Below are positions 5,902-34,578 of a DNA stretch of 40,558 nt, piece by piece. The notes below the pieces were generated by a model. The model made no database searches. It was not told the DNA's origin and worked only from the letters and a program-made list of their open reading frames with translations. Position 1 is the first letter of the stretch. Each line of letters opens with the position of its first letter. The stretch comes from a virus. The position numbers and the translations under genes were made by a program. The DNA is taken from the IMG/VR virus record IMGVR_UViG_3300009082_000324, positions 1 through 40,558 of that record. One strand, written 5' to 3'.

Positions 5902-6098
5902 ATGAAAAACAATGGCAAAAACAAGAAAGAAATCACACAATTTTAGGAATAACATCATTATTAATTAGCTTAGGATTAGGGATTGGATGTTTATCTATGA
6001 ACAAGGTTGTATTTATAGCTTTTTTAATTAGCTGTAGTATATCTTTAATCATAGCTGTTACGGAGGGAGAATCATGTTACCCAGAGAATATCAAGTAG
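5898..6098 (+). CDS. Small membrane protein with two predicted TM segments
   Basis: This 66-residue protein has hydrophobic segments at about residues 15-33 and 37-54, preceded by a polar N-terminus. It is the only clear membrane protein before the helicase gene, whose start lies inside its last codons (25-nt overlap). Its function is unknown. Small phage membrane proteins often act in exclusion or membrane anchoring, but no motif shows this. Confidence 0.65.
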   Translation: MNEKQWQKQERNHTILGITSLLISLGLGIGCLSMNKVVFIAFLISCSISLIIAVTEGESCYPENIK

Positions 6099-19399: not shown

Positions 19400-20383
19400 T
19401 TATGATCCACCTTGTCCATATACTGCAAATGGGTACCTTGTATCTTCGTCGTCATTGACTCGATTAATTGGGTTTGGTACTTGCCAAGCTATACGCATAC
19501 AAGATCTAAGACCAATCATGTTTTGTTGAGCTAAATTGTATACAATTTCCCCAGTCGTCGGATCTTGAATTACTGCTTGATCAAGAATTTTCCATGTAAT
19601 ATCTTTTCTTATTGCATAGATTAGTTTTTGCCAATCACCCGCAATTATTTGACTACGAGCCGGTACAATTGAACCGTTTCTTGGGAAGATGCAAGGCTCA
19701 CCATCTAACGTATAAATTGTTTTACCCTGGACGCCTTCTTTATTTGTAGATTTAAATATTGGATTTCCGGCGTTATCCCTTAAACCTCTAAGTTTTGCTC
19801 TTACAGTCATTGCACACAAATGACCATTTACTAAATATCCGTCTTCTTCAACTTTAGCTATCAATCCATTTTCGCCCATAATATCATCGTATAAGTCGCC
19901 TAAAGCACCCGCAGTAATAAAATTACCAGCGGCAGTAGCGGCGGCTACGATATTTGTAGGCCAAACATAAGGCGCATTGATACCATATAAAACGGCTTGA
20001 TCAAATGCTAACCCATAAGCTTCAAGCAATAAAGGTTTAACTTCTGCCCAAATATCATAGTCGGCGTCGTCCAAAACAGCCTCGGGGATTGCAACGATAA
20101 CGTTCAATTCTTCGGCATCAAGGTATTTATTTTCCCACATTACTTTGGTTGTTGATTTCCAACCTAGATAATCGGCAGTTGGCTTTGTTGGTCCTGGGTT
20201 TGTAAAATACGCGGTTGGTAATACACTTAAAACTGGAATCCTTTTCTGCGCTCTAGTCATATTAGGCGCACGATAGGCAAGTCCCATAACTGCGCTCATT
20301 TCGGGTACTTCCTGAATAATTTCGCGCATATAATCTTCAGGCATTAAAGCCTCAACGCCTGACCTTGGAATATATGTTGCCAT
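19400..20383 (-). CDS. Major capsid protein (HK97 fold)
   Basis: This 327-residue protein has the order and composition of an HK97-type shell protein: N-terminal ALMPEDYMREIIQEVPEMSA, the E-loop-like VLPTAYFTNPGPTKPTADYL, a peripheral domain with LDDADYDIWAEVKPLLLEAY and a C-terminal conserved segment ending in CMRIAWQVPNPINRVN. AAGGATG precedes its ATG. No protease gene is nearby; a separate scaffold gene is upstream, so assembly may be protease-independent. Confidence 0.85.
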   Translation of the reverse strand: MATYIPRSGVEALMPEDYMREIIQEVPEMSAVMGLAYRAPNMTRAQKRIPVLSVLPTAYFTNPGPTKPTADYLGWKSTTKVMWENKYLDAEELNVIVAIPEAVLDDADYDIWAEVKPLLLEAYGLAFDQAVLYGINAPYVWPTNIVAAATAAGNFITAGALGDLYDDIMGENGLIAKVEEDGYLVNGHLCAMTVRAKLRGLRDNAGNPIFKSTNKEGVQGKTIYTLDGEPCIFPRNGSIVPARSQIIAGDWQKLIYAIRKDITWKILDQAVIQDPTTGEIVYNLAQQNMIGLRSCMRIAWQVPNPINRVNDDEDTRYPFAVYGQGGS

Positions 20384-20405: not shown

Positions 20406-21017
20406 TTATCGACCCGTGGCCCGTCTAATTAAATCATTCAAAGACACGGATTTCTTTTTATTATTGCTACCTTGTTGATCATCCCCGGATTTATTCGTGT
20501 CTTCCGAAGATGTTTTTTTAATCAAATAGGGCTTTGCAGTGATTAACGTTTTTATTGCTTCTTCTACTCCTGTAATGTTTCCATCATCATCAATTTCGAT
20601 ATCGTCCTTATCTAATAACTTATAAGCCGCATCGGTATCAATGACCCCTAAATTCGCCGCTTTATTAAGAATTTCAGACTTAACCAAGCGTTGGTTAGCC
20701 TTGACAATTGCCTCGCTTGCTTTGTTCTCAGCTTCGACCTTTTCTGCTTTTAATTTTTCTTCGTTTGTCATTTGGGCCTTGAGTTTTTCATCGTCAACCT
20801 GTTTTTTCCAGGCTTTACGTTCACGACTCAAACGTTTTTCGATTATTTTATCAATTTCTTGTTGTGAAAAAGTTTTCGCTGGCTCTTGTTTTTCTTCGGG
20901 TTCTTCTGGTTTTTCCTCTAGCTCTGGTTCTTCTTCTTTTCCTTCTTCCCCTTCTATGCTAAGAACTGGGAATAATGGACCTAACAACATTATTGTTAGT
21001 AATTTTTTTAATTTCAT
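20406..21017 (-). CDS. Scaffold protein (DUF4355-like)
   Basis: This 203-residue protein (start ATG 21017 with AGAGGT upstream, not 21035) has the DUF4355-type scaffold signature: an acidic N-terminal linker rich in Glu/Pro, then TFSQQEIDKIIEKRLSRERK and a long charged helix, ending in a basic Lys/Arg tail. Position before the major capsid gene fits. The first 20 residues are hydrophobic, which is unusual for a scaffold. Confidence 0.8.
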   Translation of the reverse strand: MKLKKLLTIMLLGPLFPVLSIEGEEGKEEEPELEEKPEEPEEKQEPAKTFSQQEIDKIIEKRLSRERKAWKKQVDDEKLKAQMTNEEKLKAEKVEAENKASEAIVKANQRLVKSEILNKAANLGVIDTDAAYKLLDKDDIEIDDDGNITGVEEAIKTLITAKPYLIKKTSSEDTNKSGDDQQGSNNKKKSVSLNDLIRRATGR

Positions 21018-21061
21018 TTTTAATACCTCTTCCATTTTTTATGTTTGGCAACATAACCGTT

Positions 21062-21087
21062 TGTCAACGTAATTTGATTATAACATA
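21062..21087 (-). promoter_or_regulatory. Candidate promoter(s) for the scaffold-capsid genes
   Basis: On the minus strand, TATGTTATAATC (21087-21076) is a full extended -10, and TTGACA (21067-21062) follows 9 nt later, with a CATAAA-like element about 18 nt further on. The first element overlaps the stop of the Rha-like gene. Either could start a structural-gene transcript after the glycan cassette. No strong -35 is visible for the extended -10. Confidence 0.45.
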
Positions 21088-21341
21088 GATTTAATTGTTT
21101 TAAATTTTAATTTCACGGTTTCGGGAGTATTCTTCAATAAACTTATTAAAAAGTTAATTTGAAGTTGATTTAAATGCTTAACAAAGATTATAGGCCGACC
21201 CCCTTTAGTGTTTTTTCCTGGTAATAGTTTTTTTTCTTTAATCGGCCCTAACTCTTCAAAATAGTTTCGATGTAAACATATTATTCGATAAACTGAAAAA
21301 TGTGACATATTTAATTTTTCAGCTAATTTAATAGAGTTCAT
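21078..21341 (-). CDS. Rha-like phage regulatory protein
   Basis: This 87-residue protein resembles the N-terminal DNA-binding part of Rha-type proteins: KLAEKLNMSHFSVYRIICLH (HTH), then KGGRPIIFVKHLNQLQINFL and NTPETVKLKF. It is the last gene of the glycan cassette, overlapping the glycosyltransferase gene by 14 nt. It may regulate the cassette or the adjacent promoter. Confidence 0.55.
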   Translation of the reverse strand: MNSIKLAEKLNMSHFSVYRIICLHRNYFEELGPIKEKKLLPGKNTKGGRPIIFVKHLNQLQINFLISLLKNTPETVKLKFKTIKSML

Positions 21342-22458
21342 TTAATGCACGGGCGGCGGTTTCACCGCTTTTACCTCTCAATTTATTTGGAAAGATACTT
21401 TCCATTAATTCTATTTCTTGTTGTTGCATTCCATCACTTGCCGCGATTTCAATCATTTTATTTAACTCTTTCATGTTATTAGCATGATAACCTATACTTT
21501 TATTATAAATAATATATTCCAAGTTATTTTTGTCTGTCTTAAAATGTCCTAAAACATCATCTTTACAAATCCAATCTGGGAATACTACAGGTTTACCCAA
21601 GGCCCATGCTTCGTATACAGTACTACCGGCATCAGCAATGACAACATCAGCATCAATTAACAATTGCATAGTGGGGTAATTCTTTTCTTTATTGTGTAAC
21701 TTCGTCGTTGGATGCATACCGTCGACAAACTGATAATCTTTAGGTATTTGATTTACAAAACGACTAAACATAGGAAAACTAGACCGTCCCCGATGTTTAT
21801 TATTGTATCCATGCGTAGGTAACCACGCCACAACTATTTTATTCGTGGAATTTTTCACATATTCACCGTTAAAAAGTGGATCTAATTTAGTATATCCAAC
21901 TTGAAAAATTTCCCCTTTGTACCCTGTTTTTTTCATTCTGTTTTCCCAGGCTGGACCCGGACAAAAGGCGTATTTATAATCTTGAATATGAGGACCTATC
22001 CAATAATTTTTATCACCTATCCCGTGACTTATAAAAATATCTCTCGGTCCAACCGGGGTTTTACCTTGTTGATTAATTCGTAGACTTGAAAAAAACCTAC
22101 AATTTAATCCCTTACCGCCTTTACCGGGAACCGGGCGGCTATAATAGGCCGTTTCTTCTTTTGGCAAATATTTAATTATCGGGTCCGCTAGTGCTTCAAT
22201 AGCGTATTTATAGGCAAATCCAATATTTACGTCGTTATCATCGTAGGCAAAATTAAATTTACTACCCAAGTATAATTTATGTTTCTTAATATACTGAGCA
22301 TTATTTAATTTTCCTACTCTTAAATTTGGATTACCTCGTATCATTTTAAAATCGAAATCCATAGGCCCAACATTTATTATTATTTCTTCGTAAGGTTTAA
22401 ACGTCCATGGACCTATACAAATATTAAAGTGGGCTTTATTCATTACATTTACTAACAT
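21328..22458 (-). CDS. TagF/TarL-like polyol-phosphate transferase
   Basis: This 376-residue protein resembles CDP-glycerol/CDP-ribitol poly(polyol-phosphate) transferases: GYTKLD near residue 194, HPTTKLHN near 248 and the ADAGSTVYEAWALGKPVVFP motif near 275-295. This family adds glycerol- or ribitol-phosphate units to wall polymers. Its N-terminal 50 residues (NICIGPWTFKPYEEIIINVG and more) look like a separate small beta domain, not typical of the family. The cytidylyltransferase and reductase genes are upstream. Confidence 0.75.
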   Translation of the reverse strand: MLVNVMNKAHFNICIGPWTFKPYEEIIINVGPMDFDFKMIRGNPNLRVGKLNNAQYIKKHKLYLGSKFNFAYDDNDVNIGFAYKYAIEALADPIIKYLPKEETAYYSRPVPGKGGKGLNCRFFSSLRINQQGKTPVGPRDIFISHGIGDKNYWIGPHIQDYKYAFCPGPAWENRMKKTGYKGEIFQVGYTKLDPLFNGEYVKNSTNKIVVAWLPTHGYNNKHRGRSSFPMFSRFVNQIPKDYQFVDGMHPTTKLHNKEKNYPTMQLLIDADVVIADAGSTVYEAWALGKPVVFPDWICKDDVLGHFKTDKNNLEYIIYNKSIGYHANNMKELNKMIEIAASDGMQQQEIELMESIFPNKLRGKSGETAARALNELY

Positions 22459-23069
22459 AATTTCACCACCTGACCATCTAAAAATTTTCCGTCTTCTACT
22501 AAGTCCATGATGAATGAAGCTAAGAACGAAGGCTTTAACATATTATCAAAATCGTCATCGGGGGCAATTTGATGCCTCATGTCCGAATCAAAAGCACCCG
22601 GACATAAACAAAAAACTTTTATTCCATATCCTTTTAATTCATGGGATAAGCTTAAACTTAAATTAATAACCGCGGCTTTACTAGCGGCATAAGCTGACCG
22701 TCCAGGCCTAGAGCCTAAACCAGCCGTTGAAGCAATATTAATAATTTTTCCAGGTAATTTATTTTTTATACATAATTCAGCATATAGCTTTGAATTATTA
22801 AAAACGCCATTCAGATTTACATTGATAACTTCTTGCCAATCCTGGACATTCATTTCTAATATAGATCCACCTTTATAAATTCCCGCATTATTTATCAACG
22901 CTTCGGGTAATTCCATTTCTTTATAAAAATTACTTAACGCCTCATAGTCGGTAACATCTATATCGTTCCACCTACAAATTGGATAATAAAAATAACCCCT
23001 TTTACTTGATTCTTTCGCTACTTCTTTACCTAGTCCCCTATTTGATCCTGTTATGACTATTGATTTCAT
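22452..23069 (-). CDS. Short-chain dehydrogenase/reductase
   Basis: This 205-residue SDR has TGSNRGLG (NAD(P) binding, residues 7-14), NNAG (near 79), the Ser of IINIAST and YAASK (catalytic Tyr and Lys near 127-131). It lies directly between the IspD-like cytidylyltransferase and the TagF-like transferase. In the bifunctional Bcs1/Acs1 enzymes of Haemophilus, an SDR reduces ribulose-5-phosphate to ribitol-5-phosphate next to a cytidylyltransferase. This is the most attractive role here but remains inference. Confidence 0.75.
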   Translation of the reverse strand: MKSIVITGSNRGLGKEVAKESSKRGYFYYPICRWNDIDVTDYEALSNFYKEMELPEALINNAGIYKGGSILEMNVQDWQEVINVNLNGVFNNSKLYAELCIKNKLPGKIINIASTAGLGSRPGRSAYAASKAAVINLSLSLSHELKGYGIKVFCLCPGAFDSDMRHQIAPDDDFDNMLKPSFLASFIMDLVEDGKFLDGQVVKLC

Positions 23070-23740
23070 TCTTGTTTTTCTCCTTGTAAATATTTATAAA
23101 TAGCTTCAGCAATATAAACATCAAGAGGGGTAGTTATCTTAATATTTACATCTTCACCTTTTACAATTTTAGGGATTAACCCTAATTCATTAATAATTAA
23201 AGCGGCGTCATCTGTATAATCAAATTTTTCATTTACTCTAGCTTTGACATGTCCATGATTTAATAGTTGGGTATTATATTTTTGGGGCATTTGAACGGGT
23301 CCAATGGTATTCCTATTAAAACTATTTCCACAACAATCTATTACCGAAGCATACATTTGTGTTATTGGAGTTACAAATTCATTTTCGCAATCCAACACCT
23401 TTTTAATTAAATTTAAACTCATAAAGGGCCTAACTGCTTCACAAATCAATACTTCATCAGTGACAACTTCACTTAAACCAAGATAAGTGGAATTTTGACG
23501 AGTATCACCGCCTTGGCATATGATCACATGATCGATATTGTAGTTAAAACAAGCCTTCAATATTTTTTGTCGGTCTTCTTCAGGGCAAGGAATAATAATT
23601 TCCCCTATTTCTTTTATCCTTCTTAATGTTTCTAATCCGTGTATTAATAATGGTTTGCCATGCAAACTTAAAAATTGTTTAGGGTAACCGAGGTTGGCGC
23701 GTTTGCCAACCCCTGCACATAAATAAATTACGTCAATCAT
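23066..23740 (-). CDS. IspD/TarI-like cytidylyltransferase
   Basis: This 224-residue protein has the IspD/TarI nucleotide-binding pattern: YLCAGVGKRANLGYPKQFL at the N-terminus, GGDTRQNS near 77, and a C-terminal region with TDDAALI and VNIKITTPLD. The family joins CTP to methylerythritol phosphate (IspD) or ribitol phosphate (TarI). The SDR and transferase neighbours suggest CDP-ribitol rather than isoprenoid synthesis. It overlaps both neighbours by 4 nt. Confidence 0.75.
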   Translation of the reverse strand: MIDVIYLCAGVGKRANLGYPKQFLSLHGKPLLIHGLETLRRIKEIGEIIIPCPEEDRQKILKACFNYNIDHVIICQGGDTRQNSTYLGLSEVVTDEVLICEAVRPFMSLNLIKKVLDCENEFVTPITQMYASVIDCCGNSFNRNTIGPVQMPQKYNTQLLNHGHVKARVNEKFDYTDDAALIINELGLIPKIVKGEDVNIKITTPLDVYIAEAIYKYLQGEKQE

Positions 23741-24339
23741 TTGACAAATACCTGAGTTACCATTTTAGTTGGACACGGAATGAAATATTTAGTTAATTCT
23801 TCTTTTATTAACATTAAGCCATCTTGCTCAAATATAGCCTTGTAATCTCTGTTTATTAGAGTATCCTCAATGATTATTATCTTATTTGCTATTTTCCTCA
23901 TAATACTAAAAACATAATCTGCTTGTTGTGGGTGGATATGCATTAATACGGCACAAGTAAATATTAAATCAAAATTACCAAGGTCATCAATCACATTTTC
24001 AACCGGGCTATTTACTACTTTATAGTTATCATTTTTATAAAAGTTTTTGCCAAACTCTATGGCGTCCTCATTAATTTCTATACCAGTTAAATTTTTATAT
24101 CCGGCACCTTCTAAATAGTTTAAATTACGGCCACAATTACATCCTATTTCTAATATTTTTGCATCATGTTTAATATCAAAATCTCTAAATTGTTTTAATA
24201 TATACGCTGATCTATCTTCGTGTTTCGCGTACTCCTCAGGTTGATTGGTATTATCTGGATTTCTCCAAAAATCATGGCTTAATTCTTGAGTGTCAAGCCA
24301 CCCATTTCTAGTATGATCAATTCCTAAATATTCTTTCAT
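23737..24339 (-). CDS. Class I SAM-dependent methyltransferase
   Basis: This 200-residue protein has the Rossmann methyltransferase motifs: KILEIGCNCGRNL (motif I, near 62-74), an acidic residue at GIEINED, and FDLIFTCAVLMHIHP (motif IV-like). The LMHIHP form is common in sugar- and glycan-tailoring methylases. Within the cassette it probably methylates a sugar or glycan end. Its exact substrate cannot be told. Confidence 0.75.
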   Translation of the reverse strand: MKEYLGIDHTRNGWLDTQELSHDFWRNPDNTNQPEEYAKHEDRSAYILKQFRDFDIKHDAKILEIGCNCGRNLNYLEGAGYKNLTGIEINEDAIEFGKNFYKNDNYKVVNSPVENVIDDLGNFDLIFTCAVLMHIHPQQADYVFSIMRKIANKIIIIEDTLINRDYKAIFEQDGLMLIKEELTKYFIPCPTKMVTQVFVK

Positions 24340-25169
24340 TTTGTAAAACCTCCTATAATTTCTCTTCCAAGACCCATTTTTCCATAGATCTTGTATAATT
24401 CAATTGTTTGTTTACTTGATATTTTATTAAACAAAACTTCTTCATGACATCTAGCAAAATGACATTCACGTCCCAAACTTTGCGTTTCTAAGTAATTAGT
24501 ATCTTTATGTAAGGCATAAAATTCAGTTAAATAATTACCTAAAATAAATTCTTTTTCAAGGCCAACGGCTTTACATAGATTAATTAAACCATCTTTATTA
24601 AAATAATTAATATGATCCGGGGTAACTACCCAATATTGTTTTTCAACTTTTCGGATTCCCATTACATACTTTTGAAAAACTGAAAAGTCATTTGGCACCT
24701 TGATAATAATCTTTTTAGAACACACCTCGATGCATTTTTCTAAAAGTTTCCTAGGTTCTCGTACATGCTCAAGAACGTTATCAAGATTAATAATGTCAAA
24801 CTTTTCTTTTATGTGTTCCAGGATATCAAAGATATTACCAATATCAATAAACTCTTTCATATCTGGATTATGTTTTAATAATCCTGCATCGCTGTAATCA
24901 ATGCCTTTAACGTTATACCCTTTATCGTGGAAATATTTTAAAGCGAATCCTTCGCCGCAACCAACATCCAAAAAACTTGTGAATGATCCACATAACATGT
25001 GTTTTTGTTGTAATTTAGCCTTAAAAAAATCTAGTTCTAATTGGGTATACTCTTGTTTGTAAGAAGTACTTTTATTATTCTGATAATAATTAGAATAATA
25101 TCGACTTAATTCTTCTTCACTGGGCATATTGGTTAATTCATAATAACCATATTGATTTAGTTTAACCAT
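24336..25169 (-). CDS. Class I SAM-dependent methyltransferase (Methyltransf_23 type)
   Basis: This 277-residue protein shows SFLDVGCGEGFALKYF (motif I), KGIDYSDAG (motif II) and NLDNVLEHVREPRKLLEK (motif IV/post-IV), typical of Methyltransf_11/23 enzymes found in polysaccharide loci. The N-terminus (PSEEELSRYYSNYYQNNKS) is a common lead-in of that group. AGGAATTTAA precedes ATG 25169. Confidence 0.75.
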   Translation of the reverse strand: MVKLNQYGYYELTNMPSEEELSRYYSNYYQNNKSTSYKQEYTQLELDFFKAKLQQKHMLCGSFTSFLDVGCGEGFALKYFHDKGYNVKGIDYSDAGLLKHNPDMKEFIDIGNIFDILEHIKEKFDIINLDNVLEHVREPRKLLEKCIEVCSKKIIIKVPNDFSVFQKYVMGIRKVEKQYWVVTPDHINYFNKDGLINLCKAVGLEKEFILGNYLTEFYALHKDTNYLETQSLGRECHFARCHEEVLFNKISSKQTIELYKIYGKMGLGREIIGGFTK

Positions 25170-26420
25170 TTAAATTCCTATCCTTTCTTTGAATTTAAGT
25201 ATCATAGAGTTGTAATTCAAAGGATGTAAAAATGGCTCTAAACCCTTTAAATATGCCTCTAGTTTTTCCTTGTCAAATTTAAAACTTCTAATTTCTTGAA
25301 TGGCTCTCATTACATCCGGGTATGATCCGACAGAAAAACAACCCGGGAGATATTGATAATAAATATTACCAAACAATAAACAACATTTTCCTTTCAAAAT
25401 GGCCTCCCATCCGGCGGTCCCTGTCACGGTAGCCACCGCAAAGGCTTTATCAATCAATGTATAATGATTAGTTTCCACTGGTATTAAATGAACATTCCTC
25501 ATTTTTGTAAGCCTGTTATAATAAGCTATTGATCGATTTTTTGACATGTGAGGGTGTTCCTTGACGTAAATTGTGTAACCCGTGAAGCTAAGAATTTCAA
25601 TCATTAACAATTGATCAACGAAGACTCCCCCTAATGGACATGTTGACGCCTCATATTGATAGTGGAGGGGAACATAAATAAAAGGCTTATTAATATCAAA
25701 TTTTTTACAACATGCTTTGTAAAAATCAAATAAATCCTTGTATTTAATCCTTACATTCTTTTGAAATTCTACAACACGAGAAACATTGGGAATAGTAATA
25801 GGCTTATAACTTAAAGGCTTATTATATAAATATTCTTCAAATATACTCTTTAATCGGGGATATTTGAAATCACTATAAAGAGGTTCAAATCCCGTCATAG
25901 GATCTTTAATTGATTCAATAAAATAACCCCAATCAGGAAATAAAAAATAATTGGTAAATGTTTTAATCCCTTTAAACTTACACAGATTATAAATAACAAA
26001 ATCATACCCCATATGAGGAACAAAAGCCGCCAAGAATACATCAATTTTATTTACTGCTAAATAATACGACCAATATCGCAGGCAAGCCAAATAATGAGAT
26101 TTACGCGTGTCAAAGCTATCATTAGGCTTAATTGATTTAATACGTTCATACATTTTCATTACTTCGCTTTCGCAATCATGCATACCTTCAATGGTATACT
26201 GATCTAGCGGTGTGACTTTAGTCCAGTCTACAGTTCTAAAGAAATTAAAATTTTTCAATTTTTTGTGGGGATGTAAAGTCATATTTTTATTAATTTGCAA
26301 AAGTTTTTTTTTCATAGGTAATGTTAGCCTATCCCCAACTATACAAAATAATTTATGATCTTTTATGTTTTTCCCTGCTTCTGCAATAAATTTATGATCC
26401 CCTAAAATTAATATGTTCAT
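25170..26420 (-). CDS. Capsule-synthesis-type glycosyltransferase (KpsS/Capsule_synth-like)
   Basis: This 416-residue protein resembles the Capsule_synth family: a central VPLHYQYEASTCPLGGVFVD, YVKEHPHMS, and VATVTGTAGWEAILKGKCCL. These motifs match donor-binding elements of KpsS/KpsC-like enzymes, which transfer acidic sugars such as Kdo. In this cassette it is a candidate to transfer a nucleotide-activated nonulosonic sugar. AAGGGTGAT precedes the ATG. It has no membrane segment, so membrane association would be peripheral. Confidence 0.7.
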   Translation of the reverse strand: MNILILGDHKFIAEAGKNIKDHKLFCIVGDRLTLPMKKKLLQINKNMTLHPHKKLKNFNFFRTVDWTKVTPLDQYTIEGMHDCESEVMKMYERIKSIKPNDSFDTRKSHYLACLRYWSYYLAVNKIDVFLAAFVPHMGYDFVIYNLCKFKGIKTFTNYFLFPDWGYFIESIKDPMTGFEPLYSDFKYPRLKSIFEEYLYNKPLSYKPITIPNVSRVVEFQKNVRIKYKDLFDFYKACCKKFDINKPFIYVPLHYQYEASTCPLGGVFVDQLLMIEILSFTGYTIYVKEHPHMSKNRSIAYYNRLTKMRNVHLIPVETNHYTLIDKAFAVATVTGTAGWEAILKGKCCLLFGNIYYQYLPGCFSVGSYPDVMRAIQEIRSFKFDKEKLEAYLKGLEPFLHPLNYNSMILKFKERIGI

Positions 26421-27037
26421 TTTATCACCCTTACTATTTCAAAAGTTTCACAATAATTTTTTAATACTATACTACCATTTACACTCATTTTATCTTTTAT
26501 AATTTGCCAACTTCGAGGGTGTGGATAACCCCTTAACTCGCTTTTATAACAATCCATGGCTAATATTTTTTGATCGATATCAATTTCAACAAACATTTGA
26601 GGCTTAAACGATGTAAACCCCCATTCGGTACTAGATAATATTTCAAAACTGTATATTTGCTTAACTAAATGAGAATTACAAGGCCTTGCCGCTGTTAATA
26701 CGGCCTCAAATATAAGCCTATGATCTTTGTTTAAATCATGGTTACTATGTGTATAAATGATATCTGGTTTATACACTTTTATATATTGCTCAATACTTTG
26801 TATAATGTCCAAAATAGGCACGGTGTCAAATCGCTGATCCGGCAAATTTTCAAAAGTTAAATGATATCCAATAATCTTTGAAGCTAAGGACGCCTCAGTT
26901 TTTAAATCAACTTCACGGCCGCCCGTGGACATTATAAGAACTAATACTTTATCACCATTTTCAACATGTTTACTAAGTGTTCCACCGCATCCTAAAATTT
27001 CGTCATCGGGGTGGGCAACAATACATAATACGTTCAA
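26417..27037 (-). CDS. PIG-L/LmbE-family deacetylase (TTG start)
   Basis: This 206-residue protein begins with VLCIVAHPDDEILGCGGTL, which holds the zinc-binding HPDD of PIG-L family, and has HSNHDLNKDHR near residue 96-106. The family removes acetyl groups from N-acetylated sugars. The start is a TTG at 27037 with GGAGG upstream. It overlaps the HAD gene by 35 nt. In nonulosonic loci such enzymes can free an amino group for later modification. Confidence 0.8.
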   Translation of the reverse strand: MNVLCIVAHPDDEILGCGGTLSKHVENGDKVLVLIMSTGGREVDLKTEASLASKIIGYHLTFENLPDQRFDTVPILDIIQSIEQYIKVYKPDIIYTHSNHDLNKDHRLIFEAVLTAARPCNSHLVKQIYSFEILSSTEWGFTSFKPQMFVEIDIDQKILAMDCYKSELRGYPHPRSWQIIKDKMSVNGSIVLKNYCETFEIVRVIK

Positions 27038-27524
27038 TAAATTTATCCTCCTTCACATCAATAAAATAGGCGTCGGCGTTTTCAGCGAATCTTCTATCGC
27101 TTTCTCTATCGCCGACATAACACACTTTATCTACTTTTAATACGTCTGACATTATTTGTAATGACGACGGATTAGGTTTATAAAATTTCGGATCATCTAA
27201 AATTATAATATGATCAAAATATTTATGAATACCTAAAATATCGATTTTATTATTTTGTATTTCCTTGTCACCGTTTGTTATCAATCCTACCTGGCAAGTT
27301 AAAATTTTAAATAACGGATTTACCCAAGGATACAAAGTCAATTTAGGTTTAATACCTCTATAAATAGAATTGCCGAATCTATGCATAACTTTATTAGGGT
27401 CAATGTTATAAAAATTTTTAAGCATCTCCACAGATATTTTTTTACAAATTTCTTCAAACCCTGCAAATACAAATTGTTTTGAATCATACAAGGTATCATC
27501 CAAATCAAATACTAACCCGACCAT
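27003..27524 (-). CDS. HAD-family hydrolase
   Basis: This 173-residue protein has VFDLDDTLYD (nucleophile motif, residues 5-14), TNG (motif II, near 84), a Lys in KFYKPNP (motif III) and VGDRESD (motif IV). It is a small HAD phosphatase-like enzyme. The adjacent ATP-grasp gene overlaps it by 13 nt. Such HAD and ATP-grasp pairs are often found in glycan modification loci, where the HAD may hydrolyse a phosphorylated intermediate. Confidence 0.75.
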   Translation of the reverse strand: MVGLVFDLDDTLYDSKQFVFAGFEEICKKISVEMLKNFYNIDPNKVMHRFGNSIYRGIKPKLTLYPWVNPLFKILTCQVGLITNGDKEIQNNKIDILGIHKYFDHIIILDDPKFYKPNPSSLQIMSDVLKVDKVCYVGDRESDRRFAENADAYFIDVKEDKFIERIMYCCPPR

Positions 27525-28360
27525 TCCGTTAAATACCTATACACTTTCTTTTTATCTTGGATATTATAATCTGATTTATAATAATTCCCGGTCCAAATAT
27601 CTATTGAATCCTTTATAATATCAAACCCCGCCATAATACTAAATATAGCTGACCCCGCTAATCTAGGATTTATTTCTATAAGATAGATTTCATTATCCCT
27701 AACTATAACCTGAATATTGATAGGACCCTTGAATTTGATTTTACTTACAATATCTTTTGTAAAATCAATTAAATCCTGTCTCATGTCAATTTCCCCTTGA
27801 AGGGTAACATTTGTAAAACTTACTCGTTTCCGGGGTACACAAAATATAAATTCACCATTCAAGTTAACTAAACAATCAATAGTATACTCTATACCTTGAA
27901 TAAATTTTTGGACTATGTATTTACCATTCAACATATATTGTCTAAAATCCGTTGTTAAAAAGGCCTCTTTGGACCCTCTCGAATAAATACCCCTAACAAA
28001 TCCATACTTATCCATTACACTACTTAAAGCCGGTACTTGTATATCATGGGATATACAATATTGATATAAAAAATGTTTATTTATACATGTCATATTTGTT
28101 TCATGATCGCATTGAATTATTCTTGCGTCATTCATACATAAAAGTAATTCTTCATCGATAAAAGGAAAAAATAAATCATACTCAATATCATTGATATATC
28201 CAGGATGACAAGGGTCCACTTTGTAAAATTTATCACAAAAATGTTTACCTGGAATATCATTATTCATATCAATACCAATCACATAATGACCTAACTTTTG
28301 TAAGTGCTGTATATAGCTTATAGCTACACTTCCACCTACAGCACTAATCATTATTTTCAT
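27512..28360 (-). CDS. ATP-grasp enzyme (carboxylate-amine ligase-like)
   Basis: The start is ATG 28360 (AAGGAGGG upstream), giving 282 residues; a longer frame from 28510 runs antiparallel to other coding and is not supported. The protein has an N-terminal Rossmann-like part (MISAVGGSVAISYIQHL), then the ATP-grasp core with YIVQKFIQGIEYTIDCLVN and EIYLIEINPRLAGSAI (metal-binding Glu/Asn). These enzymes ligate a carboxylate to an amine. A plausible role is adding an amino acid or carboxylate to an amino sugar. Confidence 0.75.
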   Translation of the reverse strand: MKIMISAVGGSVAISYIQHLQKLGHYVIGIDMNNDIPGKHFCDKFYKVDPCHPGYINDIEYDLFFPFIDEELLLCMNDARIIQCDHETNMTCINKHFLYQYCISHDIQVPALSSVMDKYGFVRGIYSRGSKEAFLTTDFRQYMLNGKYIVQKFIQGIEYTIDCLVNLNGEFIFCVPRKRVSFTNVTLQGEIDMRQDLIDFTKDIVSKIKFKGPINIQVIVRDNEIYLIEINPRLAGSAIFSIMAGFDIIKDSIDIWTGNYYKSDYNIQDKKKVYRYLTEWSG

Positions 28361-28847
28361 TGTAACCCTCCTTATTAAAACTAAAATACAACGAATTCCA
28401 ATAATATCCACCGTAATATTTCCGGGCCGGTAAAATTGTTGTATAAGATGGTTCCATCTTTTTCCAAAAATCAATTGAATTATTGCATTCGTAGCATTCA
28501 CCATATACATTTTCTAAATTTAATTCATCAAAAGCATAATCCAGGATTAATTTTAATGCCTCTCTTCCATAGCCTTTACCGGTTTGTATTACAAACATGG
28601 TTATTTCTCCAAGCCTATTTTCCCATTCAATATGTGAAATCCCGGTAGTTCCTACTAATTTCCCATCGGCATTAATCCCAAATATTCTATTATTAGAATT
28701 TCTATTAGATACAACATCATTATAATAATCGTGTTGCATTTCTTTAGTTAATAGAAATGGAGTTCGCCAACTTCCTTTTATTTTGTTTTTTTCTATTCTA
28801 ATATACTCTAAATCCTGCTCATTTAAGACTTCGAGAGTAACGCCCAT
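28344..28847 (-). CDS. GNAT acetyltransferase (PseH-like)
   Basis: This 167-residue protein matches GNAT enzymes of the RimJ/PseH kind: the KLVGTTGISHIEWENRLGEI strand, FVIQTGKGYGREALKLILDY (acetyl-CoA-binding Gly/Arg loop near 92-103) and a later FDELNLENVYGECYECNNSI. PseH acetylates the amino group of the UDP-4-amino sugar in pseudaminic acid synthesis. Placement beside a Pse-type methylase supports it. AGGGGTGAT precedes the ATG. Confidence 0.7.
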   Translation of the reverse strand: MGVTLEVLNEQDLEYIRIEKNKIKGSWRTPFLLTKEMQHDYYNDVVSNRNSNNRIFGINADGKLVGTTGISHIEWENRLGEITMFVIQTGKGYGREALKLILDYAFDELNLENVYGECYECNNSIDFWKKMEPSYTTILPARKYYGGYYWNSLYFSFNKEGYNENND

Positions 28848-29395
28848 ATTAAATCACCCCTGACTTTCCCAGATTTTATCATTTTTAAATTGTACAACTT
28901 TTGAAAATCATTTATAAAATCACCTTTAAAAAAGGCGTTTTCCCTTTCACGATATACCACCGTAAAAGGGTGTTTACTAATATGTTCTATGAGTAATATA
29001 TATTTATTGCTATGCTCATATAAAACCTTGTAGGCCTCGTTTAAATCATCAGGGGATATATGAATGAGTAGGCCATATGTAAATACTAAATCAGCTTTAA
29101 GGTCCAATTTATCAAATATAGATTGATTCCAGGCTGTACATGATTTTTTTAGTTTATCATAAGCCTTTTTGTTTATTTCTACACCATAATATTTGGCTTT
29201 GGGATAACATTGTTTAACCGCAGGAATATTTAAGCCTATATTCGCCCCATATTCAAGTACACTGTTTATATTTAATTTCTTATCTAAAATAGTTCTGAAT
29301 ACCCCAATTTTATACTGAACATATCTTTCCCGGTCGTTATCATCAGTGTAATTATCCCCTAACTTGCCTTTCCATAATTCTTCTTGGTATCTCAT
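28823..29395 (-). CDS. Pseudaminic-acid-associated methylase (TIGR03587-like)
   Basis: This 190-residue protein matches the Pse-associated methylase: EELWKGKLGDNYTDDN at the N-terminus, SVLEYGANIGLNIPAV (motif I), YYGVEINKKAYDKL (motif II), DLVFTYGLLIHISPDDLNEA (motif IV) and the conserved FTVVYRERENAFFKGDF. The start is at 29395, one base after the nucleotidyltransferase stop. The family is found beside pse genes, so it supports a pseudaminic-like product. Confidence 0.8.
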   Translation of the reverse strand: MRYQEELWKGKLGDNYTDDNDRERYVQYKIGVFRTILDKKLNINSVLEYGANIGLNIPAVKQCYPKAKYYGVEINKKAYDKLKKSCTAWNQSIFDKLDLKADLVFTYGLLIHISPDDLNEAYKVLYEHSNKYILLIEHISKHPFTVVYRERENAFFKGDFINDFQKLYNLKMIKSGKVRGDLIWALLSKS

Positions 29396-29396
29396 T

Positions 29397-30026
29397 TCAT
29401 TTTCTCCTTAAAAAATTAAATGCATCCTGGATTTTTTCAAAATCTTCTAAAGTATCCACGGACCACTTTTGATTATAAATATCATAAAAAGTAACTTCAC
29501 CAAATTTAAATCTATCATGATCCCGCATATAAGGGCAAACATGTTCCCTATCCGACCCGGTAGCTTTGTCGTATGTCTTCATTAAAGTATCGAATGTAAA
29601 CACTTCAACATCGAGGCCCGAACAAGTCCCAAAATTACCCCTATTCCAAGTATAATCATTTTTATTTACATTATGGGAGGCTATAGTTGTATCAATGATA
29701 TCAGGATAAAAATACAAAAGAGGGCAATCACTTGTTATCCTTACAATATTTTTAGACTCATATTTACATGCAATATGATAAAACCGACTCAATACATCCT
29801 CAGATTTACATTCTATTTCTTCAACATCCTCAGATTTAAAATAATTTTTAATAGGCGTATTTTCGTATTCTTTAGCAATTCCGATAACGGCCTTATCGAT
29901 ATATAAACTTTTATTAGCCGCCCTTAAAACCCATTCCGTCATAGGAATGCCGTTAATTTCTGCTAAACATTTACCAGGAAATCTGGAAGACGTCATGCGG
30001 GCCGCAATTATACATAAAAAATTCAT
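29397..30026 (-). CDS. SpsF/PseF-like nucleotidyltransferase
   Basis: This 209-residue protein has the SpsF/NeuA-like pattern: IIAARMTSSRFPGKCLAEIN with the Arg/Lys nucleotide loop, VLSRFY, RITSDCPLLYF (metal-binding Asp) and KWSVDTLEDFEKI. The family activates sugars, usually with CTP for nonulosonic acids. It would make the CMP-activated form of the sugar. It overlaps the small upstream gene by 4 nt. Confidence 0.75.
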   Translation of the reverse strand: MNFLCIIAARMTSSRFPGKCLAEINGIPMTEWVLRAANKSLYIDKAVIGIAKEYENTPIKNYFKSEDVEEIECKSEDVLSRFYHIACKYESKNIVRITSDCPLLYFYPDIIDTTIASHNVNKNDYTWNRGNFGTCSGLDVEVFTFDTLMKTYDKATGSDREHVCPYMRDHDRFKFGEVTFYDIYNQKWSVDTLEDFEKIQDAFNFLRRK

Positions 30027-30208
30027 TTATAATTCGCCTCTCTTTTTTGAATTATGCTACATGCCATTTCTAGGCCATTATATAAACCTCGTTGATATTC
30101 TTTTTGATCTTCGGCCGCTTTGATTAATTCAGCATATCGTTTTTTAAATTCCTCAGTAATACTATTTTCAATTGTTTCTAAAAATCCACTTAAATCTAAT
30201 TCTGCCAT
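30023..30208 (-). CDS. Small helical protein in the cassette
   Basis: This 61-residue protein is mainly helical: SITEEFKKRYAELIKAAEDQ, then GLYNGLEMACSII, a segment seen in small phage proteins. It lies between the first HAD and the nucleotidyltransferase gene, overlapping both by 13 and 4 nt. It may be a phage gene trapped in the cassette or a subunit; no function is known to me. Confidence 0.6.
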   Translation of the reverse strand: MAELDLSGFLETIENSITEEFKKRYAELIKAAEDQKEYQRGLYNGLEMACSIIQKREANYK

Positions 30209-30540
30209 GTCTTAAACCTCCTTATTTCTTCCAATGTTTTACCAGGCTCACCATTGAAACAAATAGCTCTATCATCGATTGTTAAAAAGGCCGGAACTTT
30301 AACCGCGGTAAACCCATCAACCTTAATTTTATATTGGTTTAACCAGCCTTTCATTGCTTCGATTCCTTTTTCTTCACAACATCGAGTTGAAAAAATCAAA
30401 ATAATATAATCTTGTTCTCTCAATTCGTTAATCATTTCTCGTATGCCATGGACTGGCTCATCAGGGATAATTTCAACCCCTTTCCACCCTGATTTATAAC
30501 TATGAATTACCCCGTCAAAGTCAATCAATATTGTTTTCAC
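30196..30540 (-). CDS. Small HAD-family hydrolase
   Basis: This 114-residue protein is a minimal HAD: ILIDFDGVIHSY (nucleophile motif, D7/D9), FSTRC (near 51-55), VPAFLTIDDRAICFNG (motif IV Asp near 92-93). It is short, without a clear cap, like small HAD proteins in other phages. It overlaps the NeuB-like gene by 20 nt. A 9-phosphatase role in nonulosonic synthesis is possible but not shown. Confidence 0.7.
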   Translation of the reverse strand: MKTILIDFDGVIHSYKSGWKGVEIIPDEPVHGIREMINELREQDYIILIFSTRCCEEKGIEAMKGWLNQYKIKVDGFTAVKVPAFLTIDDRAICFNGEPGKTLEEIRRFKTWQN

Positions 30541-31144
30541 TAAAAATCACCTCCTGTAATTGTTCGGGCGTCCTGGCAAAACTACCAGAATCAAGCCCGG
30601 TTGAATCCAATAATCTATAATGCCATTCAATCCTTTTCGGTTTATATTTTTTATATAATTGAAAATTATCGGTGTGATCACTGATATTCTCAAAATAATT
30701 AAATTTATTTTCGTAATCCTCAACACTAGCTGGATACTTACTTATACAATTAAATACTACCATGTTAGGCCTTGGATTCATAAAGATACCTGATACATAC
30801 ACCTTAAATTTAGGGGGTATTAAATCAATTAAAAAATACCTGGTATCGTTATTTGATATTTTTACAAATGGGATATCAAAACTAAGTAAATATCTTAATG
30901 ATTCAATATCATTAACCGAACTAGTCACTTCATAACCTAGTTGGCACCCGTAATTATACGCATAGTTGAACGAATTAGGATTTAATGGGGTATTAATCCC
31001 ATCGTCTCTAAAAAGTTGCCATTTAACGATTATCTTATGCTTTCCATTATCAACTTTTTTCAATTCATCATACATTTTTTTAATGTATTTTAAATCGTTT
31101 TTACATGTGTTTCCAGAGCCAAAATCTAATATTATTTCAGACAT
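30521..31144 (-). CDS. NeuB/PseI-like nonulosonic acid synthase, short form
   Basis: This 207-residue protein resembles the TIM-barrel part of NeuB/PseI enzymes, which condense a six-carbon amino sugar with phosphoenolpyruvate. Visible features are IILDFGSGNTCKNDLKYI, KWQLF, SSVNDIESLRYLLSFDIPFV, KYPASVEDYE, ISDHTDNF and IEWHYRLLDSTGLDSGSFA (the usual IEKHFTL region). The family normally has about 340 residues with a C-terminal SAF domain, which is absent, and the barrel is compact. GGGAGAT precedes its ATG. It is a divergent form whose activity is uncertain. Confidence 0.65.
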   Translation of the reverse strand: MSEIILDFGSGNTCKNDLKYIKKMYDELKKVDNGKHKIIVKWQLFRDDGINTPLNPNSFNYAYNYGCQLGYEVTSSVNDIESLRYLLSFDIPFVKISNNDTRYFLIDLIPPKFKVYVSGIFMNPRPNMVVFNCISKYPASVEDYENKFNYFENISDHTDNFQLYKKYKPKRIEWHYRLLDSTGLDSGSFARTPEQLQEVIFSENNID

Positions 31145-32151
31145 TGTTTTATCTCCCTTATAATGTATTCTTGTTCATTCTCAGATAGCCCCGGATATAA
31201 AGGAATACTAAGAATTTTATCTTTTAATTTTTCGGTATTCTCAAAATTACCCTTTAAATCTTTATAATAGTGTAAATCATAGATAGGTTTGTAATGTACT
31301 TGACACCCTATTCCCTTGTATTTTAAATATCCCATTACAACATCACGGTTATCAACCTTGATTACATATAAATGATATGTATGTTGCCGTTTATGTTCGA
31401 TTGTTTCAAAATGTTCATCATATTTCTTAGCAATCTTCGATCTTTCATTTAATTTCTGCTTAATCCTGTTTAATTGAGATATTCCTAAAGCCGCTTGAAT
31501 ATCATTCATTCGATAGTTATATCCAAGACTCACCGTGTCGATACTGACACGTCCGTGATTTCTAAATGATTTTATCATTAAATTAAATATATAGTGATCT
31601 GTAAGACATGCCCCACCTTCGCCGGTTGTGATATGCTTAACTGGATGAAAACTAAAACATGTTATATCAGCCCTCGGGTCTACTTGCATACTATGACAAG
31701 CATCCGAGATTAAATATAGATTATGTAAGCCGCATATATCCTTTATTCGTGGATAATTACAAGCTTGCCCGGCATAATCGACACAAATTACCGCTTTAGT
31801 TTTAGGGGTAATTAAATTCTCAATTTTTTCTGGATCAATACATAGACTGTCATCGACATCACATAGAACAACTGTTCCATGCATATATCTTATACAATTT
31901 GCAGTAGCTACAAAGGTCATTGTAGGGATGATCACCTCATCACCGGGTTTTAAATTAATTGCGAACATAGCCGCGTGTAACGCCGCCGTTCCTGAGCTTA
32001 ACACCCTGCAAAAATTAGAACCCGAATAATTACATAAAGCGTCTTCAAACTCTTCAATCTTAGGGCCTGTAGTTAAATAATCATCTTTTAATACTTGCCC
32101 AATTGCTCTTACATCATCATCGTTTATTTCTTGTCGGCTATAAGATATCAT
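31132..32151 (-). CDS. PseC-like DegT/DnrJ-family aminotransferase
   Basis: This 339-residue PLP enzyme begins MISYSRQEINDDDVRAIGQV, typical of PseC, and has SSGTAALHAAM (phosphate loop near 52-62), SDACHSM near 149-155 and FHPVKHITTGEGG with the internal-aldimine Lys172. The C-terminal half has HVHYKPIY-like QVHYKPIY. It would add the 4-amino group to the keto sugar made by the dehydratase, and the two genes overlap by 14 nt. Confidence 0.85.
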   Translation of the reverse strand: MISYSRQEINDDDVRAIGQVLKDDYLTTGPKIEEFEDALCNYSGSNFCRVLSSGTAALHAAMFAINLKPGDEVIIPTMTFVATANCIRYMHGTVVLCDVDDSLCIDPEKIENLITPKTKAVICVDYAGQACNYPRIKDICGLHNLYLISDACHSMQVDPRADITCFSFHPVKHITTGEGGACLTDHYIFNLMIKSFRNHGRVSIDTVSLGYNYRMNDIQAALGISQLNRIKQKLNERSKIAKKYDEHFETIEHKRQHTYHLYVIKVDNRDVVMGYLKYKGIGCQVHYKPIYDLHYYKDLKGNFENTEKLKDKILSIPLYPGLSENEQEYIIREIKQCLK

Positions 32152-33109
32152 TTAATAAACCTCTCATTTCTTCGACTGTTAACCATTTATCATTAGTATC
32201 AGAGGTATAATCAAAGTTTTCTATTTCTTCACAATCATAGTCATAAGGACCTTTGTTATTCCAGTGATAGTTATTCTCAATAATATAAAAATTCTCAGCT
32301 TCCATTAAAATTCGATCATCCTTGGCAATCAACATTTCATGGATTTTCTCGCCAGGCCTTACCCCAATAACTTTTATCAGAGCATCAGGGGCGATACACT
32401 CGGCCAAATCCGTGATTTTCATTGACGGCATCTTTGGGACAAATATTTCCCCACCTTGCATGATACCCAAAGAATTTAATACAAATTCAACGGCATTTTT
32501 TAAACTAATCCAAAACCTTGTCATTTCAGGATTTGTTATCGAAATAGTACCGACACGCTTTTGTTTTTTAAAGGTTTGCACTACAGACCCACGAGAACCA
32601 ATGACATTACCATATCTACATATCGAAAATTTAATATCTTTATCCCCAACATAGGCATTCCCACCTATAATTAATTTTTCCATGCAAAGTTTAGACGCAC
32701 CATATAAATTCATAGGATTCACGGCCTTATCCGTAGATAATGCAATTACTTTTTTTACATTGTTATATAATGCCGCCTGAATTACATTTTGACTTCCTAA
32801 AACATTTGTTTTGATAGCCTCGAACGGGTTATACTCGCAAGACGGAACATGTTTTAAAGCCGCAGTATGAATTATATAGTCAATTCCATCCGTAGCCATT
32901 TTAAGACGTTCTAAATCCCTCACATCACCAACAAAAAATTGAAGTTCGGAAGAATCTTTTTTAAATTTATTATTCATTATATATTGCTTATATTCATCCC
33001 TGGAATAAATATATACTTTTTTTGGGTCGTATTTTTCAAAGATTTGATTTGTAATTTCTTGGCCAAATGACCCAGTCCCGCCAACAATTAACCATTTTTT
33101 ATTTAGCAT
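32138..33109 (-). CDS. PseB-like UDP-GlcNAc 4,6-dehydratase
   Basis: The true start is ATG 33109 (CGGAGG upstream), giving 323 residues, not 33157. It has WLIVGGTGSFGQEITNQIF (NAD(P) binding), VGDVRDLERL, HTAALKHVPSCEYNPFEAI, STDKAVNPMNLYGASK (catalytic Asp/Lys and Tyr/Lys) and RYGNVIGSRGSVV, all characteristic of PseB/FlaA1/CapD-type dehydratases. It would carry out the first step of pseudaminic-like acid synthesis from UDP-GlcNAc. It is the first gene of the cassette after the terminator. Confidence 0.85.
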   Translation of the reverse strand: MLNKKWLIVGGTGSFGQEITNQIFEKYDPKKVYIYSRDEYKQYIMNNKFKKDSSELQFFVGDVRDLERLKMATDGIDYIIHTAALKHVPSCEYNPFEAIKTNVLGSQNVIQAALYNNVKKVIALSTDKAVNPMNLYGASKLCMEKLIIGGNAYVGDKDIKFSICRYGNVIGSRGSVVQTFKKQKRVGTISITNPEMTRFWISLKNAVEFVLNSLGIMQGGEIFVPKMPSMKITDLAECIAPDALIKVIGVRPGEKIHEMLIAKDDRILMEAENFYIIENNYHWNNKGPYDYDCEEIENFDYTSDTNDKWLTVEEMRGLLNDIL

Positions 33110-33160: not shown

Positions 33161-33192
33161 AAAAAAAACCTCATTTTCATTAATGAGGTTTT
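33161..33192 (-). terminator. Intrinsic terminator between LPXTG gene and glycan cassette
   Basis: AAAACCTCATT (33165-33175) pairs perfectly with AATGAGGTTTT (33182-33192) around 6 nt. On the minus strand it ends in a T run (complement of the eight A at 33161-33168). It separates the head genes and LPXTG gene from the cassette, so the cassette likely has its own promoter in 33110-33160, where only a weak extended -10-like TATGTTATATT is visible. Confidence 0.85.
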
Positions 33193-33211: not shown

Positions 33212-33484
33212 TTATTTGTGCTTCAATTTAAATACACCAAAGCCCGCCCCGATAATAACTACGATTAAACCTAAAATCGGCAATGTCATATTATTAGATT
33301 CTCCAGTTTTTGGAAGTGTATCACTATTATTATTAGTTGGTTGATCCGTTGGAGTATCGGTTATCGACGGGCTTATACTATCGGTTGGAATCGGTGTATA
33401 ACAATTAGCAAATATAATATTATAGCTTCCCATTGATAATGTTAAACAGATTATTATAGTTAAAACTATTATTTTTTTCATCAA
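33212..33484 (-). CDS. Small LPXTG-type cell-wall-anchored protein
   Basis: This 90-residue protein starts MMKKIIVLTIIICLTLSMGS, a signal peptide, followed by a Ser/Thr/Pro-rich linker, the sortase motif LPKTG near 58-62, a hydrophobic segment (LPILGLIVVIIGAGFGVF) and a positive tail (KLKHK). It should be exported and anchored by a host sortase. The mature outer part is only about 30 residues. It overlaps the minor capsid gene by 4 nt, so it is made with the late genes. Confidence 0.85.
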   Translation of the reverse strand: MMKKIIVLTIIICLTLSMGSYNIIFANCYTPIPTDSISPSITDTPTDQPTNNNSDTLPKTGESNNMTLPILGLIVVIIGAGFGVFKLKHK

Positions 33485-34578
33485 TTTACTCCTTCTCTTG
33501 CATATTTACGAGGTAAATATGCATTATTTGATAAATGCTCTCTTTGTCTAGTTTGCCATTCTTTGACTTTCTTATCGGCCTTTTTCTGACTAACTTCATC
33601 CAAGGAGAACATTGATTCCCTTTTATATTTTCTAATTTGCCTTTCGATATACCTTTGTTGTTGCATCGCTTTATAAGCTATTTTCTGAGCTTCCTCATAT
33701 CCGTATTTATTAACTAATGCCGCTTCGCCAGGGTCCAAAGGTGCAATGACTTGCTCTGTTAAACCCTCGAAAAATGGGGATATGTCGTGTTTACAATTAG
33801 GATGGAACAATCCTTGCATTTCAGCATCCCATATTGAAGCATATGTATTAGACATTCCATCTAAACTTAATACAACGCCCTCATATGGGGTGCATAAGTT
33901 ACATGCTCTAAAATGCGCACTAACTACCCCTAAATTCCATCCTTTTTCACAATACCGATTTATTGATGCCTGTAAAGAACACCTTTGTATTAACGTCCTG
34001 GCAAGCATTTCAGTATAAGTATCTAGGCTGTATTTAGCCCCGTTTTTATATGTAATACATTGTAGACCTCGATCGGCGTAATTATTCATTAATCTTTGAC
34101 TTATCAATCGACGAGTTACTACATCACTTTCTCGAAATGATACACTCCCAACTTCAATCGACGCCTGTCTAAATACATCATCGGCCGCCCGTAATATCTG
34201 CAATGTCGGTTTTTTTAAACTCTCCATAGCCGCGGCCCTGAAGACTTCGTAAAACTTTGTTTGATTAGGATAATCTTTGAATTTATCTACAATTTTCTCT
34301 GGCAACATTGGTATTTTATCAGGCTTTTTATGTACCAAAAAAGTACCGTTTTTTATAGAACCTGTCCCACCTTTGGGAACACGGTTTAAACCTGATATAT
34401 ATGCCTCGGTTAAATCATTGTCAATCCATTTTTGCCCACCGATTGCAAAGCCCATAGCGGCTTTTCTTGCTACCATGTCATACTTTTTTTTATTCAGATT
34501 TGATTTTAATTGTGAAGCTAAAGTATTTCCAATAGCAAATACAACACTCTCAGCCTCGTATATTAAATCATCCTGCAT
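33481..34578 (-). CDS. Phage minor capsid protein (Phage_min_cap2 type)
   Basis: This 365-residue protein has the family's core: RRLISQRLMNNYADRGLQCI, YSLDTYTEMLARTLIQRCSL and SAHFRACNLCTPYEGVVLSL, then LFHPNCKHDISPF. These residues are shared with minor head proteins of the MuF-like class, which lie next to the portal and are packaged in the head. The gene overlaps the next two genes slightly. Confidence 0.85.
   Translation of the reverse strand: MQDDLIYEAESVVFAIGNTLASQLKSNLNKKKYDMVARKAAMGFAIGGQKWIDNDLTEAYISGLNRVPKGGTGSIKNGTFLVHKKPDKIPMLPEKIVDKFKDYPNQTKFYEVFRAAAMESLKKPTLQILRAADDVFRQASIEVGSVSFRESDVVTRRLISQRLMNNYADRGLQCITYKNGAKYSLDTYTEMLARTLIQRCSLQASINRYCEKGWNLGVVSAHFRACNLCTPYEGVVLSLDGMSNTYASIWDAEMQGLFHPNCKHDISPFFEGLTEQVIAPLDPGEAALVNKYGYEEAQKIAYKAMQQQRYIERQIRKYKRESMFSLDEVSQKKADKKVKEWQTRQREHLSNNAYLPRKYAREGVN

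Follow-up and report, generated by a model that had tools for sequence, protein, structure and literature searches.

The question raised by this locus is what a phage makes with a run of glycan genes set among its head genes, and on what it puts the product. The locus lies in a 40,558-bp virus record (IMG/VR record IMGVR_UViG_3300009082_000324; the whole of this stretch is called the window below). The cassette is an unbroken run of overlapping genes on the minus strand, from 33109 down to 21078, flanked by minor-capsid and scaffold genes. We think it fairly probable that it is a phage-encoded, head-linked operon that glycosylates virion proteins with a nonulosonate and a polyol phosphate. The presence of a CMP-nonulosonate and CDP-polyol pathway is well supported. 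The acceptor, the exact sugar, the reaction products, the timing and the host we infer from the genes.

The first part of the cassette contains the genes of a nonulosonate module:

32138..33109, minus strand: PseB-like UDP-GlcNAc 4,6-dehydratase/5-epimerase (TIGR03589 435.9 bits, above the cut-off of 407.75; dN/dS 0.06)
31132..32151, minus strand: PseC-like DegT aminotransferase (PF01041 328 bits; best match TIGR03588 PseC, 336 bits, below the cut-off of 423.5)
30521..31144, minus strand: compact NeuB/PseI-like nonulosonate synthase, 207 amino acids (aa), without SAF domain (PF03102 22.3 bits, at the Pfam threshold)
30196..30540, minus strand: small HAD-type hydrolase, 114 aa (TIGR01662 17.6 bits, weak)
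30023..30208, minus strand: 61-aa open reading frame (ORF), function unassigned (overlaps its neighbours by 13 and 4 nt)
29397..30026, minus strand: SpsF/NeuA-class cytidylyltransferase (PF02348, CTP_transf_3, 78.8 bits; PDB 6oew E 4e-17)
28823..29395, minus strand: Pse-associated methyltransferase (TIGR03587 157.6 bits, above the cut-off of 112)
28344..28847, minus strand: PseH-like GNAT N-acetyltransferase (PF13302 48.8 bits; TIGR03585 PseH 27.6 bits, below the cut-off of 93.1)

An earlier sequence-only reading had assigned this set to the pseudaminic acid pathway. PseB and the Pse-associated methylase are indeed above curated cut-offs, and the PseC, PseH and PseF assignments hold at family level only. 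The cytidylyltransferase falls within the broader CTP_transf_3 family and stays far from the PseF equivalog (TIGR03584 20.4 bits; cut-off 205.7). From its family it is likely to be a CMP-nonulosonate synthetase. Because PseC, PseH and PseF score below their cut-offs and the NeuB-like protein is the compact 207-aa form, the name pseudaminic acid is not supported. The same reading had failed to recognise the UDP-sugar hydrolase PseG, and we also obtain no match above cut-off, either in the window or in any of the 42 phage records searched. Therefore a host or unrecognised hydrolase would act, or the compact synthase would use a different substrate. With PseG absent, the product is best called a 'Pse-type nonulosonate, unproven'.

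The synthase is the most unusual member of the module. A nine-sequence profile of the compact form matches the structure of C. jejuni PseI (8h2c) with an E value of 5e-6. The AlphaFold2 model (pLDDT 88.9) has PseI (E 2.4e-8, TMq 0.72) and NeuB (TMq up to 0.77) as its best Foldseek matches. H157 (in an SDH motif) and H175 (in an EWH motif) are invariant across the compact family and match the equivalent PseI motifs in the alignment. As modeled, the family has the fold and the metal-site histidines of PseI/NeuB; it has no C-terminal SAF domain, and its barrel is incomplete. The earlier assignment as a NeuB/PseI-like synthase is borne out by these closest solved structures, and is qualified by the small size and the threshold Pfam score.

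The viral scan gave 61 compact NeuB loci. Of those that we mapped, 28 lie on stretches without any window-group marker, that is, on other backbones. Their neighbours include GNAT (24/28), PseB (23/28) and a Maf-type transferase (15/28), and terL or portal lies within 6 kb in 16 of the 28. A CMP-sugar-type cytidylyltransferase is near compact NeuB in most loci. The Maf/MptE-like transferases in these other phages score about 150 bits. Maf-type transferases attach nonulosonates to Ser/Thr of proteins (PMC11339370), and finding them in these phages hints directly at protein O-glycosylation. The compact profile found only three frames in 391 Clostridia genomes, and these are of ordinary NeuB size (344-355 aa). 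Compact NeuB would thus be a phage-specific lineage; this remains provisional, given the limited Clostridia sample and with no host assigned. Maf/MptE-like transferases lie beside compact NeuB and PseB at L170 7511-9346 and also in L199 and L208; in L170, terL and portal come next.

At the other end of the cassette are three genes for an activated polyol:

23066..23740, minus strand: IspD/TarI-like CTP:polyol-phosphate cytidylyltransferase (PF01128 128 bits; PDB IspD 5ddt E 4e-25, TarI 6xhp E 2e-21)
22452..23069, minus strand: SDR reductase (PF00106 134 bits; phrog_3142 136 bits)
21328..22458, minus strand: TarB/TagF-like CDP-polyol phosphotransferase (NF041711 TarB 26.9 bits, weak; cut-off 500)

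Although the IspD domain is clear, the first protein stays below both the ispD equivalog and the ribitol subfamily cut-offs, and its polyol-phosphate substrate is therefore putative. By type, the SDR belongs with FabG and ribitol dehydrogenases and is a probable polyol-phosphate dehydrogenase. These two proteins presumably resemble both halves of Bcs1-type CDP-ribitol synthases. The AlphaFold2 model of the TarB-like protein (pLDDT 86.2) has TagF (E 1.5e-8), a capsule polymerase and TarL with CDP-ribitol (E 1.5e-7) as its best Foldseek matches, at a moderate TM score of about 0.5. The PF04464 cut-off is reached by one of 13 relatives. H145 and H249 are invariant in the family, their equivalence to the TagF histidines being judged by eye. 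At the fold level, the model indicates a GT-B protein like TagF with catalytic-type histidines. The TarB-like profile has zero matches in the 391 Clostridia genomes. We also considered the TarB-like protein as the missing PseG and rejected this; it resembles PseG at only 10-15 bits, and it is present also where the Pse-type module is absent. The earlier proposal of an activated nonulosonic sugar together with polyol-phosphate units fits the PseB and methylase scores, the PseI/NeuB fold and the TagF/TarL fold.

The two ends of the cassette behave differently among relatives. A TarB-like gene is present in every viral or metagenome-assembled genome (MAG) locus with a capsid of at least 63% identity and at least 3.1 kb of upstream sequence, and in none with a capsid of 59% or less. 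IspD, SDR and TarB-like genes occur in 11/11 clustered genomes, the same as the capsid. IspD and SDR both adjoin the TarB-like gene in 32 of the 34 contigs of the ~56-61 kb phage group; SDR is missing in L017 and L151. (The count is our own and takes in viral contigs in which the TarB-like match reaches 40% or higher, with upstream sequence of about 1 kb or longer.) The PseB-PseC-NeuB-SpsF-GNAT module is found in about 7/11 clustered genomes. At the same position, G009 has a full-length NeuB (220 bits), a NeuA-type enzyme and a pyruvyltransferase-like protein, G006 has MurB and a pyruvyltransferase, G005 (L009) has a MurB-pyruvyltransferase fusion, and G004 has, by clustering, a pyruvyltransferase-like and a GT2-like protein. 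It is thus the polyol trio that stays constant, while relatives differ in the sugar module upstream of it, which is exchanged among them; the earlier reading, made on a single phage, had missed both points. Most upstream modules appear to add a carboxylate to a sugar, which we infer to be their common theme. A group that keeps a polyol-phosphate trio as steadily as its capsid while swapping the adjacent sugar module is new here.

The spacing between minor capsid and capsid, about 13 kb in the window, is mostly 0.7-2.5 kb in relatives without the TarB-like gene. Clustering had hinted at a methyltransferase as a fourth universal gene; tblastn finds none beside the trio in L127, L128, L130 and L150, and we dropped it. 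Phage-encoded MurB is located at L009 3462-5264 (fused to polysaccharide pyruvyltransferase) and L010 1485-2357. On other backbones, in L158 and L163, a TarB-SDR pair has a terL-like gene immediately ahead of it and a portal-like gene behind it (both neighbours identified by eye).

The cassette belongs to the phage itself. The window is nested within a 57,984-bp IMG/VR contig at 99.995% identity. Four relatives of 56.6-61.2 kb have 40-127 bp directly repeated at their termini, the pattern given by assembly of circular or permuted genomes, and these carry a glycan cassette at the same site; it is therefore the phage's own and not a misassembly. The containing contig, the terminal-repeat relatives and the capsid-linked synteny rule out both a misassembly and a host island, the outcome that the sequence-only reading had named as fatal to it, and the insertion that it proposed to look for in related phages is at the same place there. 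All cassette genes are under purifying selection (dN/dS 0.04-0.19, window against two near relatives). The boundaries of the cassette and the neighbouring head genes are:

33481-34578: Phage_min_cap2, hidden Markov model (HMM) match, flank on the PseB side
33165..33192, minus strand: strong terminator-like hairpin with an 11-bp stem and T-run, upstream of PseB
21078..21341, minus strand: Rha-like protein, which closes the overlapping run and is not a glycan gene (PF09669 24.8 bits, below the cut-off of 29.9)
20406-21035: Phage_scaffold, HMM match, flank beyond the Rha-like gene
19400-20383: Phage_capsid, HMM match, head gene beyond the scaffold

These matches confirm the location between minor capsid and scaffold, and the HMM searches of the proteins uphold the gene content, order and coordinates that had been given. 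From PseB to the Rha-like gene, each junction is an overlap of 4-35 nt, as previously described, or an abutment (gaps of 0-1 nt). The 61-aa ORF at 30023-30208, overlooked earlier, fills the apparent gap at 30027-30195. The mechanical start of the PseB ORF is 33157, and homology begins at the internal ATG at 33109. The terminator before the first gene is real as a hairpin with a T-run. The promoter-like element placed after the last gene (21104-21077) is at chance level; sigma-70-like sites number 112, compared with 100 ± 12 in shuffles. The GC fraction is 0.30-0.34 in the cassette and 0.36-0.39 for most head/tail genes at 15-21 kb.

The middle of the cassette encodes further tailoring enzymes and a transferase:

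27512..28360, minus strand: ATP-grasp ligase (PF15632 74.8 bits)
27003..27524, minus strand: HAD_2 phosphatase-like protein (PF13419 71.7 bits)
26417..27037, minus strand: PIG-L family deacetylase, TTG start (PF02585 85 bits)
25170..26420, minus strand: Capsule_synth-type, KpsC-like glycosyltransferase (PF05159 26.8 bits, above the cut-off of 20; profile A3 against KpsC 6mgb E 2.4e-6)
24336..25169, minus strand: S-adenosylmethionine (SAM) methyltransferase (PF13489 54 bits)
23737..24339, minus strand: SAM methyltransferase related to the Pse-associated methylase (PF13649 39.8 bits; TIGR03587 53 bits, below cut-off)

The start of the ATP-grasp gene lies near 28360 rather than at 28510 as first given. 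KpsC is a beta-Kdo transferase that uses a CMP-sugar, and because of this relationship the KpsC-like protein is our best candidate for CMP-nonulosonate transfer. No membrane helices are predicted by hydropathy in the cassette enzymes, all of which look soluble; synthesis, and probably attachment, would therefore be cytosolic.

A pathway can be proposed from these assignments. PseB, PseC and the GNAT enzyme, judged by their families, would convert host UDP-GlcNAc into a 2,4-diamino-2,4,6-trideoxyhexose. Once UDP has been removed, the compact synthase would, from its fold and neighbourhood, join the freed sugar to phosphoenolpyruvate to give a nonulosonate. The SpsF/NeuA-class enzyme may then form the CMP-sugar, with methyltransferases, deacetylase and other enzymes tailoring it. 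In parallel, the SDR and the IspD/TarI-like enzyme would, by family and fold, make a CDP-polyol of the CDP-ribitol kind. The KpsC-like transferase and the TarB/TagF-like phosphotransferase, both placed at the fold level, might load these units onto an acceptor in the cytosol. If the acceptor is a phage structural protein, virions would gain an acidic coat of nonulosonate and polyol phosphate, and exchange of the upstream module between relatives would alter that coat.

Virion glycosylation is the best reading because of the Maf hint in other phages and the head linkage. Several points count against it. No Maf/MptE-like transferase above cut-off is found in the window group, where the transferases are assigned by distant similarity alone. 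PseG is missing, and the sub-cut-off equivalogs leave the identity of the sugar unproven. The hairpin stands between the cassette and the head genes upstream of it, and co-expression with the head is therefore only presumed. The acidic coat itself is predicted from the genes. More tentatively, and with somewhat less than even confidence, we suggest that many unrelated tailed phages with their own compact nonulosonate synthase lineage build acidic particle coats of a sialic-acid-like sugar, joined in the window group by a teichoic-acid-like polyol phosphate, and that exchangeable sugar modules act like virion serotypes. Few phages have so far been shown to glycosylate their virions. If the target is the virion, particles would wear self-made sialic-acid-like or teichoic-acid-like coats, with a bearing on adsorption, on antibody or lectin recognition and on phage coevolution. 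The small nonulosonate synthases could then also serve glycoengineering.

The main rival, which we regard as unlikely, directs the same enzymes to the surface of the host cell. During infection or lysogeny they would modify wall teichoic acid, flagellin or an anchored protein, with a superinfection block or a serotype change as the result. TagF/TarB-like, IspD and SDR proteins are teichoic-acid and capsule chemistry, and flagellin is the usual Maf substrate. However, hydropathy reveals no membrane protein in the cassette, neither a flippase nor a polyprenyl-phosphate transferase nor any other. Moreover, genes for serotype conversion tend to be accessory, whereas the trio is retained as regularly as the capsid gene and keeps to head clusters. 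A gene for an LPXTG-anchored, Ser/Thr/Pro-rich protein directly upstream, with a 256-aa form in the near relative L068, would offer a surface target, but it lies outside the hairpin and is not seen adjoining the cassette in more distant relatives.

It is improbable that the pathway ends before the nonulosonate, with the UDP-diamino sugar of PseB/PseC used directly and the compact barrel catalyzing another aldol-type reaction. The absence of PseG from all 42 records, and a synthase that scores at the Pfam threshold and has neither an SAF domain nor a complete barrel, would suit such a short route. The fold match and the conserved histidine motifs speak for a true synthase instead, as do the cytidylyltransferase nearby in most loci and the ordinary NeuB with a NeuA-type enzyme at the same position in G009. 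Hypermodification of phage DNA with glycans is very improbable; virus-encoded DNA-modifying glycosyltransferases are known (Pyle 2024, as cited in PMC12619734), but a thymidylate-synthase-like base hydroxymethylase (PF00303) and a TET/JBP oxygenase (PF12851) are absent in the window group, and the transferases look like those that act on capsule, teichoic acid and proteins.

Virion glycosylation has a precedent in mycobacteriophages, where phage-encoded enzymes glycosylate capsid and tail-tube proteins (Freeman 2023, as cited in PMC12691614 and PMC12619734). There, according to the citing papers, the glycosylated target is shown, whereas in the window group it is predicted from the genes. Those mycobacteriophages reportedly carry transferases drawing on host sugars; the window phage, in contrast, carries whole nonulosonate and CDP-polyol pathways. 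The CMP-pseudaminic/legionaminic system for flagellin with Maf (for example in Clostridium, PMC13317340) shares PseB, PseC-like, GNAT, NeuB-like, cytidylyltransferase and methylase genes, with Maf added in unrelated phages. Unlike that system, the phage lacks PseG, has a compact NeuB and places the genes beside head genes where that system has flagellar ones. Teichoic-acid and capsule polyol-phosphate synthesis (TarI, TagF/TarL) has the same IspD/TarI-like enzyme, SDR and TagF-fold phosphotransferase side by side, but the phage phosphotransferase is a separate lineage of little sequence identity, polymer export genes are missing, and the gene order is that of a phage.

The only deposited phage with a TarB-like relative is the cultured Thermobifida phage P1312 (KT021004). 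It shares a methyltransferase and the TarB-like transferase (35% identity) after the tail genes (L120 13845-15774); unlike in the window, no IspD, SDR or nonulosonate gene is annotated nearby. Deposited phages gave no terminase, compact NeuB, SpsF or Maf match at the thresholds used, and their IspD/PseB matches are mostly to unannotated contigs of doubtful phage origin or to cyanophages. No paper on phage-encoded pseudaminic-acid pathways was found in the open-access literature, subscription papers being outside the search. No host was assigned; the sole close match in genome_contigs, a contig that looks phage-like and sits in the bin of a Spirochaetes MAG, is not a reliable guide to it.

Several other features were observed. 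The ORF at 33212-33484 is not a glycan gene; its product, small and secreted, combines an LPKTGE sorting signal with a stalk rich in Ser, Thr and Pro. A separate LPKTGE protein is far from the cassette in G004. The sorting signal suggests a Gram-positive host. A short tyrosine-integrase-like ORF (34959-35489, 176 aa) adjoins the portal within the head cluster. Between these two, the ORF at 35486-35959 has an N-terminus that looks like GIY-YIG by eye (no Pfam match); it is perhaps a homing endonuclease insertion, as it is not found at that place in L068. In the RadD-like helicase at 6074-8479, about 275 aa of intein-like sequence interrupt the DEAD-box motif, with weak intein N- and C-terminal matches. 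In G011 (46258-48588), additional in-frame sequence of about 1 kb interrupts the terL match (frame of 823 aa) and may likewise be an intein.

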